IMG/VR virus record: IMGVR_UViG_3300020455_000108
Coordinates: 1 to 20,718 of that record
DNA length: 20,718 bases
Strand: one strand, 5' to 3'
Origin: a virus
In this document: positions 1 through 13,450 of the stretch, one piece after another
Numbering within the stretch: the first letter of the stretch is position 1
Layout: every line of letters starts with the position of its first letter
Notes under the pieces: model-generated
Databases searched by the model: none
Told to the model about the DNA's origin: nothing
The model's input: the letters and a program-made list of their open reading frames with translations, nothing else
Made by a program: the position numbers and the translations under genes

Positions 1-2111
1 AAGTTGGTCGTACAGAAAGAAACAGAGCTAGTGTTTTTCGTAAGCTGGTCCAGAAAGAAATTACTAAGCATGAGAAAAGAGACAATGAGTGGCAATTAGA
101 TATTGGTCGAGAATATGTATTTCAGGCAATTGCTTGTCTCAAGGATATATTTTGTCTCAAGTTTTTTATGAAAAATGGCAAAAAGAATTATCAGGTTATT
201 TACACAGAATATGCGAAAAAGCAGTTAGACATTATTAGTCTAGAAAAAGCACTCCACAGACCTCAGTTCTACCCTATGCTGGTTCCACCGAGAAATTGGG
301 AATCTGTTACTGGTGGATGTTATTTAACAAAAGCAGTTTCTAAAAATGTGAACCTTGTGACGAAAGAAACTCAAGGTCAAAGAAACTTACTGAAAAATAA
401 TCTTCTATCTTCAAAATTAAAACCATACCTAACTGGTGTCGATATTTTAGGTAAAACTCCATTAGCAATTAATTCCAGAATGATTGAGGTAATTAAGTTT
501 GCCTATGAAAATAATCATGCTCTAAAAATTAAAAAATTTATTGTTGATGAAAAAGTAGAAATTCCTGAAAAGATTAAAGGTGATAGAGAGAACTTTTTTA
601 ACAGATTAAAAGCACTGGACCTAAAACACTCAATTGAGAGCCAGAGGTCACAGTATCATCAGGATATTCACACTGCTAAAACGTATTCAGGTAAAGTATT
701 TTATTTACCTCACAGAGCTGATTTCCGAGGTAGGGTTTATCCTATTTCCCCTTTTAGCCATCATCGTGGTGACCACATTCGTTCCCTCATTTGGTCGGCT
801 GTAGGTAAGCCTCTCGGAAATCAAGGTCTTTACTGGCTAAAGTATGCTGTAGCTACAAGTGGAGACTTTGATAATTGCACAAAAAAATTACCAGACGATA
901 GAGTTAAATGGACTATGGACAATCTGGAATTTATTTTTGATTGTGCTGAACTTTGGAGAACTAAACTAGATTGGTCTAAAGCAGATAAGCCATTTACGTT
1001 TTTAAATTACTGCATGGAACTTACTCTAGCTTTAATGTCCGATAATCCAGAAAAGTATCACTCAAAAGTTTTTATGAACTTTGATGGCTCATGTTCTGGT
1101 CAGCAACATTTCTCAGCCTCACTAAGATCAGAGGAAGGTCTACTTGTAAATCTAGGTCCAGCAAATAAAGTTGGTGATCTGTATAGTGCTGTAGTTGAAC
1201 AATCAAATGAGTATCTAAGTCGAGCTTGGTCTCAAAAAGCACAATTTTACCAGCAATGGGAGAAACCCATTTTAAAGCTCATAGAGGCTGGTTATCTCAC
1301 TCGTAGCATAGTTAAACGAAATACCATGACTTTCGGCTACAGTAGCAAAAAATTCGGCTTTAAAGAGCAAATTCTGGAAGATTTAATGAGACCTCTCGAA
1401 ACTCAGGTTAGAATGGGTCTAATTGAGGAAAATCCATATGCAATTGGTGATGATGGTGGCTTTGCAGTTGCTGGTCTAATTGCTGAACTAAATTGGAAAT
1501 CAGTTAACAAGGTGGTCCAAGATACATCTGATGCCATGACATGGCTCACACAAGTAGCTGGAGCACTTGCTCATGAAGGTAAACCTTTAATTTTTAATAC
1601 ACCTTTAGGCTTTCCAGTGGTCCATGCATACTACCAATGGCAAACACACAGAGTACGAGGTATTTTTGGTGGAGCTGAGGTTCCAGTCATGAATTTAAAT
1701 ACTGGTAATTACTCAAACATCACTCAATTGAGCATGTTGGCTAAACTTAGACCTACAGAGATTATTCTGAAAGACAAAGCTAAGAGTTCAGTTGCTCCAA
1801 ATGTAATACACAGTATGGATGCAACTCATTTAATCATGGTCACCAAAAAAGGTGCTCAAGCTGGCATACGAGACCAGCTACACATTCATGACAGTTTTGG
1901 ATGCTTGATGGCTGATGCAACTCAGTTTCAAGATGTAATCAGGTCCAGCTTTGTAGAACTGTATGAAAAATACGATATTTACGATGAACTTTTGTCCATC
2001 GCACAGAACAAAATCAGTTCGAGAAATAGACACCGACTCCCTTCTGATATTCCAGCCAAAGGCTCATTGAATATTAGAGGTGTGCTGAAATCGAAATTCG
2101 CATTTAGTTAA
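1..2111 (+). CDS. T7-like single-subunit RNA polymerase (5' partial)
   Basis: DNA-dependent RNA polymerase that transcribes phage genes from phage-specific promoters. The frame is open from base 3 to the stop at 2109-2111, giving 702 visible residues; T7 RNAP has 883, so about 180 N-terminal residues lie outside the window. The ATG at 168 is internal, not the start. Seen directly: the palm motif FDGSCSGQQHFS with the metal-binding Asp codon at 1083; the O-helix motif KRNTMTFGYSSKKFGF with the Tyr codon at 1338; the second metal Asp in HIHDSFG at 1890; APNVIHSMD just before it; and a C-terminal FAFS that matches the FAFA foot of T7 RNAP. One oddity is Ser after the O-helix Tyr where T7 has Gly640. 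The promoter-recognition loop region (around 1620-1690) is unlike T7's, so promoter specificity should differ. The SSB gene follows 11 bases downstream. Confidence 0.97.
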   Translation, partial: VGRTERNRASVFRKLVQKEITKHEKRDNEWQLDIGREYVFQAIACLKDIFCLKFFMKNGKKNYQVIYTEYAKKQLDIISLEKALHRPQFYPMLVPPRNWESVTGGCYLTKAVSKNVNLVTKETQGQRNLLKNNLLSSKLKPYLTGVDILGKTPLAINSRMIEVIKFAYENNHALKIKKFIVDEKVEIPEKIKGDRENFFNRLKALDLKHSIESQRSQYHQDIHTAKTYSGKVFYLPHRADFRGRVYPISPFSHHRGDHIRSLIWSAVGKPLGNQGLYWLKYAVATSGDFDNCTKKLPDDRVKWTMDNLEFIFDCAELWRTKLDWSKADKPFTFLNYCMELTLALMSDNPEKYHSKVFMNFDGSCSGQQHFSASLRSEEGLLVNLGPANKVGDLYSAVVEQSNEYLSRAWSQKAQFYQQWEKPILKLIEAGYLTRSIVKRNTMTFGYSSKKFGFKEQILEDLMRPLETQVRMGLIEENPYAIGDDGGFAVAGLIAELNWKSVNKVVQDTSDAMTWLTQVAGALAHEGKPLIFNTPLGFPVVHAYYQWQTHRVRGIFGGAEVPVMNLNTGNYSNITQLSMLAKLRPTEIILKDKAKSSVAPNVIHSMDATHLIMVTKKGAQAGIRDQLHIHDSFGCLMADATQFQDVIRSSFVELYEKYDIYDELLSIAQNKISSRNRHRLPSDIPAKGSLNIRGVLKSKFAFS

Positions 2112-3038: not shown

Positions 3039-3325
3039 AAAAAGTAAATCCAAGGCAATGGCAAGCAATGTTAGCTCTGAAACTGGGGATGAAGAAGGAG
3101 ATATGGGTACCGATGAAACTCCTGAACAGCTTTCTGAATAAACCAGTTTTTCAATCCACTTTAGATACTCTTCATTTCAGTTTTGGCTTTGTTGAAAAGA
3201 CACAATTGGGAATGGAAAGCACTGGTGCTTGGGGTCCACAAATTAGACAAATGAACCACTACCGACTGACTAAGGAAGGTAATGAATATTTGGTAGGAAA
3301 ATTGAAAGGAAATGAAAATGAGTGA
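3035..3325 (+). CDS. Small protein, possible winged helix
   Basis: Function not recognised. It has 96 residues, starts in an ATGA overlap with the endonuclease stop, and has AAAAGGAA five to six bases before the ATG. The second half contains GAWGPQIRQMNHYRLTKEGNEYL. The YRLTKEGNEYL part is the kind of segment that forms the wing of winged-helix DNA-binding proteins, though the first 60 residues give no clear recognition helix. There are no cysteine clusters and no strongly hydrophobic membrane segment. The next gene encodes a helix-turn-helix protein and overlaps its end, so the pair may be co-translated DNA-binding or regulatory proteins. That functional link is inference only. Confidence 0.72.
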   Translation: MKKVNPRQWQAMLALKLGMKKEIWVPMKLLNSFLNKPVFQSTLDTLHFSFGFVEKTQLGMESTGAWGPQIRQMNHYRLTKEGNEYLVGKLKGNENE

Positions 3326-10904: not shown

Positions 10905-10911
10905 CGCATTT

Positions 10912-10991
10912 TAAGCCTCACTGAGTGCCCATATCGACATGCTCTAGTATGATTGTCTACAAATGGTAACTATTGTGCTCTGTGAGGCTTA
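10912..10991 (+). ncRNA. Long imperfect stem-loop, possible processing site or leader RNA
   Basis: TAAGCCTCAC (10912-10921) pairs perfectly with GTGAGGCTTA (10982-10991). After a T-T mismatch, the stem continues with GAGTGC (10923-10928) against GTGCTC (10975-10980), two of these pairs being G-U. The result is about 16 base pairs around a 46-base loop. In T7, imperfect hairpins between genes are RNase III sites; this is a reasonable analogue. It sits in the leader of the gene at 11020. It lacks a T-arm and is not a canonical tRNA. Confidence 0.6.
10952..10964. promoter_or_regulatory. TTGTCTACAAA dyad, copy 1
   Basis: TTGT-CT-ACAA is an inverted repeat. The 11-mer TTGTCTACAAA here (10953-10963) recurs exactly at 12176-12186 in the other main non-coding gap. 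It could be an operator or part of a phage promoter. It rests only on repetition and symmetry. Confidence 0.3.
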
Positions 10992-11019
10992 TTCTGGCTC
11001 TAAGCAAAAAGGATAGAAA

Positions 11020-11214: not shown

Positions 11215-11746
11215 TTCTGGATTTATTAGACGAGAACGAGACTATTATCCGACTCCGATTAAAGCTGTAGAACCATTAATCAGGCACATAGAAACATATC
11301 AGACCTATGCAGAACCAATGGCTGGCAATGGTGCACTAGTTAGAGCACTGGACCAGCTATCAGACCTCAAGTGTACTTGGATGAGTGACATAGACCCAAA
11401 GTCTGAGGATATCTATGAGGCTGATGCATTTAACCTGACACTATCCGATTATGGCATAGGAACTGACCTGATAATCACCAATCCAATGTGGGATAGAACA
11501 GAGCTACATCGAACTATAGAATACTTGAGTGCCATTAGACCAACTTGGTTACTCTTTGATGCAGACTGGATACATACATTGCAGTCTAGACCTTACCTGA
11601 AACACTTACAGAAGGTCCAGAGTGTTGGTCGTATTAAATGGATAGAAGATACTACAATGACTGGTAAGACTGATTGTTGCTGGTATTTATTTGAACACAA
11701 GGAAAAGAGAGAACATGACAGATTCAAAATGTATGGAAGGACCTAA
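11201..11746 (+). CDS. SAM-dependent methyltransferase, DNA adenine-type
   Basis: Probable DNA methyltransferase of 181 residues. The N-terminus RRERDYYPTPIKAVEPL is typical of phage-borne DNA methylases. Motif I is YAEPMAGNGALVRAL (Glu38 to Gly44), the SAM-binding loop; SDIDP (around 62-66) is the acidic motif that binds the SAM ribose. Motif IV is ITNPMW (Asn94-Trp97), a variant of NPPY/NPPW with Met in the third place. There is no recognisable target-recognition domain, so sequence specificity may be low or unusual. GGAG five bases before ATG 11201 supports the start. No restriction enzyme gene lies next to it, so it is an orphan, perhaps protecting phage DNA from host restriction. Confidence 0.8.
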   Translation: MGKRSSGFIRRERDYYPTPIKAVEPLIRHIETYQTYAEPMAGNGALVRALDQLSDLKCTWMSDIDPKSEDIYEADAFNLTLSDYGIGTDLIITNPMWDRTELHRTIEYLSAIRPTWLLFDADWIHTLQSRPYLKHLQKVQSVGRIKWIEDTTMTGKTDCCWYLFEHKEKREHDRFKMYGRT

Positions 11747-11894
11747 AGTGTACACACTTGAACACTACAGATCACAGCCAGTTCCTAAGTGTTCTAGTTG
11801 TATGCAGAAGGAGATTGTTGTCACTGATTGTGGTGGATTATGCTCTGAATGTGCTGTCAAAGTGTTATTAAGAAACACAGTTGTAAGACGTTGA
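11715..11894 (+). CDS. Small zinc-ribbon protein
   Basis: A 59-residue protein with two CxxC pairs, KCSSCMQ and LCSECAV, 14 residues apart, plus a Cys between them (TDCGGLC). This arrangement is a small zinc ribbon. I chose ATG 11715, preceded by AAGGAAAAGAGAG, over the upstream in-frame TTG 11691. It overlaps the methyltransferase gene by 32 bases and is the last gene before the long non-coding junction. Its function is unknown; zinc ribbons of this size in phages often bind nucleic acid or host polymerase, which is only a guess here. Confidence 0.68.
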   Translation: MTDSKCMEGPKVYTLEHYRSQPVPKCSSCMQKEIVVTDCGGLCSECAVKVLLRNTVVRR

Positions 11895-11923
11895 ATCTAA
11901 GTGGTTATTCGACCTACCCTATC

Positions 11924-11946
11924 AAATGTGTACATTTATAGAAGAG
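11924..11946 (+). promoter_or_regulatory. Candidate promoter (phage RNAP or host type)
   Basis: AAATGTGTACATTT (11924-11937) is a perfect dyad with a two-base centre, followed directly by TATAGAAGAG (11937-11946). From memory, TATAGAAGAG matches the start region of SP6 promoters, where the G is +1; here that G is base 11941. The upstream part does not match SP6, as expected for a different polymerase. A weaker host-type reading is TTCGAC (11908) and TACATT (11931) with a 17-base spacer. Confidence 0.42.
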
Positions 11947-12023
11947 AGAGGTCCTTGATGACCTCTAACTACTATTAAGACTACATGCAAAGACTAGGTA
12001 CTGCATGTAGTCGTATTTTTTTT
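11941..12023 (+). ncRNA. Putative small RNA: hairpin plus terminator
   Basis: If transcription starts at G11941, the transcript would be about 83 bases. It would hold a hairpin with AGAGGTC (11947-11953) paired to GACCTCT (11960-11966) over a six-base loop, a short linker, and the intrinsic terminator. Promoter, structured body, terminator and no open reading frame is the layout of a small-RNA gene. Alternatively it is simply a transcriptional stop after the replication block that happens to follow a promoter. Confidence 0.4.
11979..12023 (+). terminator. Strong intrinsic terminator
   Basis: GACTACATGCA (11979-11989) pairs perfectly with TGCATGTAGTC (12002-12012), giving 11 base pairs with a 12-base loop. 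GTA then eight Ts (12016-12023) follow. It is the only clear intrinsic terminator in the window and closes the replication block. Confidence 0.9.
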
Positions 12024-12096: not shown

Positions 12097-12146
12097 TAAG
12101 CCACCTGATCTACAATCAGTTGTGCTACCCAATAAAATAAGGCTTA
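12097..12146 (-). other. tRNA-like fragment (Tyr-type anticodon arm), no T-arm
   Basis: Read on the minus strand, this has TAAGCC and GGCTTA as outer arms, a D-loop-like TTGGGTAG, and an arm CTGA-TTGTAGA-TCAG with a seven-base loop. That loop has U at position 33 and GUA at the anticodon place, as in tRNA-Tyr. The T-arm is missing and the D-stem does not pair, so it is not a working canonical tRNA. It could be a decayed tRNA gene, an attachment-site copy of part of a host tRNA, or chance. Confidence 0.35.
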
Positions 12147-12153
12147 TGTTGCT

Positions 12154-12171
12154 TGGGAGTAATCACTCCCA
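12154..12171. repeat. Compact inverted repeat (hairpin)
   Basis: TGGGAGT (12154-12160), a four-base loop AATC, then ACTCCCA (12165-12171). The seven pairs are perfect. No T-tract follows on either strand, so it is not a terminator. It could be an operator, an RNA stabiliser or part of a processing site. Confidence 0.6.
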
Positions 12172-12265: not shown

Positions 12266-12283
12266 GTTGTTGTTGTTGTTGTT
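12266..12283 (+). repeat. (GTT)6 trinucleotide tract
   Basis: Six perfect GTT units in non-coding DNA, preceded by more GTTGTT runs at 12238 and 12251. It lies about 40 bases before the first virion gene and could affect spacing or RNA structure in its leader. Confidence 0.9.
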
Positions 12284-12284
12284 C

Positions 12285-12302
12285 GACCTTTTTAATGAGG
12301 TC
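12285..12302 (+). repeat. Small inverted repeat before the virion block
   Basis: GACCT (12285-12289) pairs with AGGTC (12298-12302) across an eight-base T-rich loop. The same GACCT/AGGTC arms occur in the hairpin at 11947-11966. It is short and not followed by a T-tract, and lies 23 bases before the ATG of the first virion gene. Confidence 0.45.
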
Positions 12303-12325: not shown

Positions 12326-13450
12326 ATGGTTTGGAATTTAATTTTGCCAGCACTCGTAGGTGGTGCTATGTCTGCATTAAGTAGACCCAAGGCTCCTACT
12401 TACAATGCTCCACCACAAGAGCAAGCAATGATACCTTATATGCAAGAGGCACTCCCTCTTTACAAAGATGCTGTAACTGGAGCAATGCAACAAGGTCCAT
12501 ATAGTGGTGCTACATATGCTCCAATGTCTGGTCTACAGCAAGGCAATCTCAATAACTATTTAAGCTATCTTTCAGGACAAGCTGGAACAGCAAATAACAT
12601 ATCCAACATGGGTACAAATTTGGCTATCAATAATGCTGGTGCTTATCAGGGAGCTGTTAATCAGCTGGGTAACTTTAATTCAGGAATGACCAATGTAGGT
12701 CAGAATGTTGCTGATGCGTCAGCCTATGCTTTTAACCCAATGACATCTGGCATAATTCAAAATGCTATTAATGCATCCAATAAGGTTCTAGGTAGACAAC
12801 AAGCTGGTCTAGATGTTTCAGCATCACCATCAGGAAATCTTAATAGTTCCAGAACTGGAGCACTTGAGGCTAATCTGATTTCTGATGCTCAGGACCGAGT
12901 AGCTAATCTAACAGCTGACGTTTATGGCAGTCAGTACGATAAAGGTCTCAGTACAGCCATGACAGCTAGAAACCAAGCTGAGGGAAGAAACCTTAGTGCA
13001 CTAAATAATTATCTAGGTGCTACTGGTCAGGCTATGGGTACTGGTGTTGACCTCATGGGAACTGGATTGCAAATGGGCACTGGTCTAATGGATAAAGCCA
13101 TTGGTGTTGGTCAAATGCAACAAGGTGAACGTCAGAATGTATTAGATGCTAGTATGGCAGATTATGAACGTAAACGTATGGACCCAGTCAACATGACTGG
13201 AGCTTATCTATCCAGCACTATGATGCAACCTAGAGGTACATTTAGTGCTCCACAGCCATCGATGTTCCAAAGATTTCTAGGTGGTGCCTCAGCTGGTCTA
13301 GGCTTTGGCAATCAGTTTCCAAATATGTTTGGCAACTTTGGTTTTGGTGGAAGGTCATATGGTGGTGCACCAGCTAGTTATTCAACTGGTTATGTAGGTC
13401 CAAATATGAGTTCACCTTACACAGACTATCGTGGTTATGGAGTTGGTTAA
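12326..13450 (+). CDS. Putative internal virion / DNA ejection protein
   Basis: Probably a virion protein released during infection. It has 374 residues, rich in Gly, Ala, Asn, Gln and Met. The first 18 residues are hydrophobic (LILPALVGGAMSAL), followed by a Pro-rich linker, an Asn/Ala/Gly-rich helical body, an SSRTGALEANLISDAQDR segment (around residue 175) of a type seen in podophage ejection or pilot proteins, and three MGTG repeats at 237, 244 and 250. The C-terminus is Gly/Tyr/Ser-rich from about 320. The ribosome site AAAAAGG precedes the ATG. It fills the place of the small T7 internal virion proteins (gp14-type), though I see no direct T7 match. It is the first gene after the control region. 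Confidence 0.68.
   Translation: MVWNLILPALVGGAMSALSRPKAPTYNAPPQEQAMIPYMQEALPLYKDAVTGAMQQGPYSGATYAPMSGLQQGNLNNYLSYLSGQAGTANNISNMGTNLAINNAGAYQGAVNQLGNFNSGMTNVGQNVADASAYAFNPMTSGIIQNAINASNKVLGRQQAGLDVSASPSGNLNSSRTGALEANLISDAQDRVANLTADVYGSQYDKGLSTAMTARNQAEGRNLSALNNYLGATGQAMGTGVDLMGTGLQMGTGLMDKAIGVGQMQQGERQNVLDASMADYERKRMDPVNMTGAYLSSTMMQPRGTFSAPQPSMFQRFLGGASAGLGFGNQFPNMFGNFGFGGRSYGGAPASYSTGYVGPNMSSPYTDYRGYGVG

Follow-up and report, generated by a model that had tools for sequence, protein, structure and literature searches.

A dyad, hairpin and terminator at the replication/late boundary of a marine integrase-carrying T7-like phage: possible head of an attenuated late operon

Introduction

Temperate T7-like phages have now been reported from several hosts, and the question is how a phage with a strong polymerase of its own holds its late genes silent. 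A locus that may bear on this question lies in the window, by which we mean the whole 20.7 kb virus record analysed. In it a perfect dyad, a hairpin and a terminator stand in a row between the replication genes and the late genes. The initial annotation described this row as a promoter followed by two structures, with the layout of a small-RNA gene, and offered as a simpler reading a terminator for upstream transcription next to an unrelated promoter.

Genome context and host

The window belongs to a T7-like phage from the sea that carries an integrase. Its left, replication part contains T7-type RNA polymerase, SSB, primase-helicase and DNA polymerase-like frames, a ribonucleotide reductase and a methyltransferase. 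The single-subunit RNA polymerase (RNAP) gene (positions 3..2111, + strand; phrog_414, E = 4e-141) is truncated by the window edge, and the full protein is present in contig L074 (9276-11804, minus strand). The final replication-side gene ends at 11894, directly before the stretch studied here, and after a 431-bp gap genes for an ejection protein, an endolysin-like protein and the terminase follow rightward, the first late gene (12326..13450, + strand) encoding a DNA ejection protein-like product (phrog_4287, E = 1.3e-10).

Two pairs of contigs, from two samples, continue the window. In window positions, L018 ends at 11677 and L003 starts at 11675, the corresponding end of L019 being at 11367 and the start of L002 at 11464; because the ends abut and the sample is shared, we infer that each pair represents one genome. 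In the left parts of these genomes there is an attP together with genes for an integrase and a MarR-like regulator, with a predicted transcriptional regulator adjoining the integrase (phrog_9665, E = 3e-21). The portal and capsid proteins encoded in the right parts are of SU10 type; together with the T7-like genes they make the phage a mosaic. A structure model of the MarR-like protein was not used, being of low confidence (pLDDT 54) and without a solved relative. The attP core is the 3' part of a tRNA-Thr(TGT) found in alphaproteobacterial genomes, including those of Paracoccaceae, and the hosts of the phage are Paracoccaceae-type Alphaproteobacteria. The RNAP profile had matches in 3 of the 395 host-family genomes. 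One alphaproteobacterial single-cell genome, SAG AG-359-I23 (G016), contains seven attP-like or tRNA-Thr-derived matches (C10, C19 and C3), and the phage RNAP was not found in it; these matches are probably scars or satellites of related integrating elements.

The dyad motif and its second copy

The perfect dyad AAATGT-GT-ACATTT occupies 11924-11937 and is followed by ATAGAAGAG; with its right flank it occurs a single time in the window (0.00 expected). It lies inside a 17-mer, CAAATGTGTACATTTAT (11923..11939, + strand), the core of a putative phage-RNAP promoter, and a 17-mer differing by one change, CAAAAGTGTACATTTAT, precedes the RNAP gene in L018, L019 and L102. Sites of the form CAAAwGTGTACATTTAT were found in only two places in the phage group, before the RNAP gene (L018, L019, L102) and at the late boundary (window, L002, L003). 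The two copies point the same way and agree in the AT that follows the dyad on its right, and within approximately 36 kb of the L019/L002 genome there was no third mismatch-free copy of the 12-mer core GTGTACATTTAT. A motif repeated before several transcription units is the mark of a phage-polymerase promoter, and here there are two copies, a small number but one that phage Syn5 shares.

When all of IMG/VR was searched for exact matches to the 17-mer CAAAwGTGTACATTTAT, eight contigs were recovered, five of them from this phage group. The other three encode none of the eight phage proteins tested (contig DNA examined) and were set aside as chance occurrences, as were four outside contigs carrying the 17-mer AATGTGTACATTTATAG, for which none of the eight proteins was found on the DNA examined. 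As the matches comprise five group contigs and only three unrelated ones, the second motif copy is, on this sequence comparison, not attributable to chance.

A putative start region, AGAAGAG (11940..11946, + strand), with G11941 as +1, is proposed by analogy with T7 TATAG only: the window copy of the motif is followed by TATAGAAGAG, the T7 counterpart being TATAGGGAGA. The copy at the RNAP gene lacks TATAG and reads TATGAACA, and the segment common to both copies is barely longer than the palindrome itself. A promoter scan of 11900-11945 found no sigma-70 -35/-10 hexamers at 16-18 bp spacing, and a sigma-70 promoter was therefore rejected. The promoter named in the initial annotation thus gains support for its role from the copy before the RNAP gene, but not as a sigma-70 promoter. 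In the interval from the terminator to the late genes, motif and promoter scans found neither a second copy of the motif nor a good sigma-70 promoter. A further perfect dyad, AAGTGT-AC-ACACTT at 11746-11759, does not vary in three genomes; it lies where the methyltransferase gene ends and within the small cysteine-rich frame that follows that gene.

The leader hairpin and terminator

The start region is followed by a leader hairpin, AGAGGTC-CTTGAT-GACCTCT (11947..11966, + strand; 7 pairs, 6-nt loop), predicted by folding, and then by an intrinsic terminator (11979..12023, + strand), identified by folding and a scan, with an 11-pair stem, a 12-nt loop, GTA and eight T. The terminator has the form GACTACATGCA-12 nt-TGCATGTAGTC at 11979-12012, the arm at 11979-11989 pairing with that at 12002-12012, and its T-run is at 12016-12023; inspection of the sequence shows that two extra pairs beyond an A.G mismatch extend the stem to the T-run. 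Sequence and folding thus reproduce exactly the dyad, seven-pair hairpin and 11-pair terminator with eight T, in the order first described. A stock terminator scan missed this terminator because of its long loop (12 nt) and the 3-base gap before the T-run. In a strict scan for at least 9 perfect pairs followed by a T-run it was the only one in the window, with 0.03 expected from + strand shuffles. The stable stem with its T-run is therefore beyond chance, and the loop and 3-nt gap are atypical.

The candidate short leader RNA, a putative transcript of approximately 83 nt (11941..12023, + strand), folds at -27.5 kcal/mol (z = -4.15), with 0 of 200 shuffles as good, and both stems have pair probabilities of 0.96-1.0, save the innermost terminator pair at 0.82. 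Strong folding by itself is not rare in the window, as 26 of 4128 sampled 83-nt stretches, 11941-12023 included, fold equally strongly, many of them in genes. The stretch was correctly described as having no reading frame: flanking genes aside, only frames of 22-36 codons are present on either strand, none of them conserved. There was no Rfam match to the stretch at the gathering score, and two sub-threshold hits were rejected as chance.

Two other structured stretches were observed nearby. One, at 10910-10995, is a second structured intergenic stretch, TAAGCCTCAC...GTGAGGCTTA (z = -3.7), conserved in L018 and L019, and L074 15770-16056 contains a block, CATTTTAAGCCTCA, similar to one within it. 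The other, at 12266-12302, consists of a (GTT)n run and a GACCT...AGGTC hairpin immediately 5' of the first late gene's ribosome-binding site.

Conservation in relatives

The region is present in two further genomes, L002 and L003, which are very close relatives, giving three with the window. Over 11895-12023, L002 is identical to the window and L003 differs by four changes, at 11917, 11975, 11983 and 12008. The changes at 11983 and 12008 turn A-T into T-A, a compensatory swap within the terminator stem; given four changes, we estimate a probability of approximately 0.01 for a chance change of the exact partner to the exact complement. The first hairpin does not vary in the three genomes and so provides no covariation for or against it. 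The comparison with relatives that had been proposed for both stems thus yielded, in these three close genomes, one compensatory pair in total, in the terminator stem. The intergenic gap as a whole is 97% identical, compared with 73-99% for third codon positions in the late genes, and the remainder of the gap is therefore under constraint too. An IMG/VR search for distant relatives with the first late protein and a 677-aa late protein returned just the same two contigs, the first late protein had no match in the genomes searched, and more distant methyltransferase relatives have unrelated flanks. R-scape-type statistics were impossible because these searches found no more distant relatives with the region.

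Repeated sites shared with the lysogeny region

An inverted pair of TGGGAGTA-type sites, TTGGGAGTAATCACTCCCA, is located at 12153..12171, and the same type of site flanks the motif copy at the RNAP gene. There are about seven repeats of TGGGrGTA around attP and before RNAP (L018 85-556; L074 11813-12278), and in L018 copies at 417-425 and 548-556 stand on either side of the motif at 477-490. L018 and its partner L003 have the TGGGAGTA variant both around attP/RNAP and at the position of the window pair, and L019 and its partner L002 have mostly the TGGGGGTA variant in both places. Since sites 12 kb apart change together, their sequences suggest that a single DNA-binding protein, integrase or regulator, acts at both regions. 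The shared sites link the control region of the late genes with that of lysogeny.

On the minus strand, 12098-12171 has an att-like order of elements, namely a TGGGAGTA site, CTTATTTTATTGGG and a sequence like a tRNA anticodon, CTGATTGTAGATCAG; the attP region of L018 and L102 looks similar. This may be a relic, or a second site of recombination where the T7-like and SU10-like modules meet. A duplication of the whole attP-like region was suggestive but weak, and was not retained, as its best alignment was equalled in 8 of 300 shuffles.

Comparison with known systems

In phage lambda, the pR'-6S RNA-tR' unit places a promoter between the replication and late genes, followed by an intrinsic terminator with the late genes behind it; this late leader is transcribed by the host RNA polymerase with the antiterminator Q, and its RNA is approximately 194 nt. 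The present stretch is similar in having a promoter-like motif at the replication/late boundary, a putative short structured RNA with an intrinsic terminator, and late genes downstream. It differs in that the phage has its own polymerase, that no antiterminator was named among the genes scanned, and that the RNA would be approximately 83 nt. The T7 late promoter phi10 also gives a transcript with a 5' hairpin, as is proposed here, but in T7 the terminator comes after the capsid gene, and the leader has none.

A closer parallel in gene order is the cultured Roseobacter phage CRP-403 (OR420752, L110), which shares the order MarR, integrase, RNAP, SSB, endonuclease and has a repeated motif at matching places. 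Its motif, TAACCsTTACTAGA, has 4 matches (0.43 expected), with sites at 3265, 5816 and 13170, of which one precedes RNAP, one follows it and one is near the boundary of the replication and virion genes. The sites carry no annotation in the CRP-403 record and, judged from their sequence and placement, are likely phage promoters. Unlike the window, CRP-403 has a different motif, an RNAP that is 29% identical, and T7-like virion genes, and its boundary copy stands in a gap of only 34 bp, hence without a leader terminator.

In the T7-like phage LUZ100, which shows temperate features, a phage promoter stands immediately 5' of the RNAP gene, next to a MarR regulator and an integrase (PMC10134795). 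The present phage group likewise combines a candidate promoter of phage type in that position with an integrase and a MarR-like regulator. LUZ100 differs in having eight promoters with another motif, and the part of that report drawn on here describes no late leader with promoter, hairpin and terminator (PMC10134795). Cyanophage Syn5 has just two promoters for its RNAP, the 15-bp promoter ATTGGGCACCCGTAA containing the short dyad GGG-CA-CCC (PMC3950665); the two copies per genome and the internal dyad are alike in both phages, and the sequences are unrelated.

Alternative readings of the locus

The placement of the motif copies, their shared orientation, and the parallels with CRP-403, Syn5 and LUZ100 argue for a promoter of the phage polymerase, which we hold to be rather probable and favour over an operator. 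A point against a promoter is that the shared part coincides with the palindrome, a shape no less suited to a repressor that binds as a dimer. The dyad might then be the operator of a phage regulator (e.g. the MarR-like one) that silences RNAP and the late genes in the lysogen, with promoters elsewhere and with the hairpin and terminator merely ending upstream transcripts. The perfect palindrome, the predicted regulator beside the integrase, and the MarR-RNAP link proposed for temperate T7-like phages (PMC10134795) would all suit an operator. TGGGrGTA, which flanks the RNAP-gene copy, is a better operator candidate, however, the dyad copies are oriented alike with AT to the right in both, and no promoter-like sequence was found for an operator to control; we therefore regard an operator as rather doubtful.

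It is improbable that the stretch is a plain terminator of the replication operon that lies by chance beside an unrelated promoter-like sequence. Such a terminator would stand directly after the last replication-side gene and stop its transcripts, but the motif has two placed copies, which chance does not account for, and it points into the terminator, not away from it. This is the "simpler reading" of the initial annotation, and it leaves a terminator downstream of a start site unexplained. We consider a trans-acting small RNA gene regulating host or phage mRNAs quite improbable. The start signal, two stems, terminator and near-invariant sequence across three genomes, together with the size and the lack of a reading frame, do have the layout of a small-RNA gene. 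A function of its own is unsupported, as there is no Rfam relative or conserved target, and the position ahead of the late genes points to a role in cis, a leader or attenuator fitting the position at least equally well. Pairing of the linker ACUAUUA with the start codon of the first late gene was rejected as not conserved, being broken by a T-to-C change in L003.

A proposed attenuated late operon

Promoter, leader hairpin and terminator together may form the head of the late operon, in which attenuation yields the short RNA and read-through reaches the late genes, a reading to which we give roughly an even chance. The motif would be recognized by the single-subunit RNAP, and transcription would start near G11941. 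Most transcripts would end near 12023, giving the short structured RNA, and a minority would read through, or be made to read through, into the late genes from 12326, by leakage, by the phage polymerase ignoring the stop, or by means of a factor. The same terminator would stop transcripts from the replication genes and so insulate the late genes from upstream transcription by the host polymerase. Attenuation is proposed because any start here meets a stop after approximately 80 nt, and a purposeless stop would be odd for a late promoter. A further step, in which a factor bound at the TGGGrGTA sites (also present around the RNAP promoter and attP) would choose between the short RNA and the late operon through attenuation of the phage's own polymerase, is unlikely. 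The parts are ordinary and follow known phage control logic; their arrangement is a new version of it.

Should the stretch be no more than an operator with an adjacent terminator, it would still locate the control sites for a group of uncultivated phages. If the attenuated late operon is real, a genome with two promoters for its polymerase and a terminator within the late leader would offer a simple explanation, open to testing, of how the late genes of such phages are kept silent, and would add a new polymerase-promoter pair.
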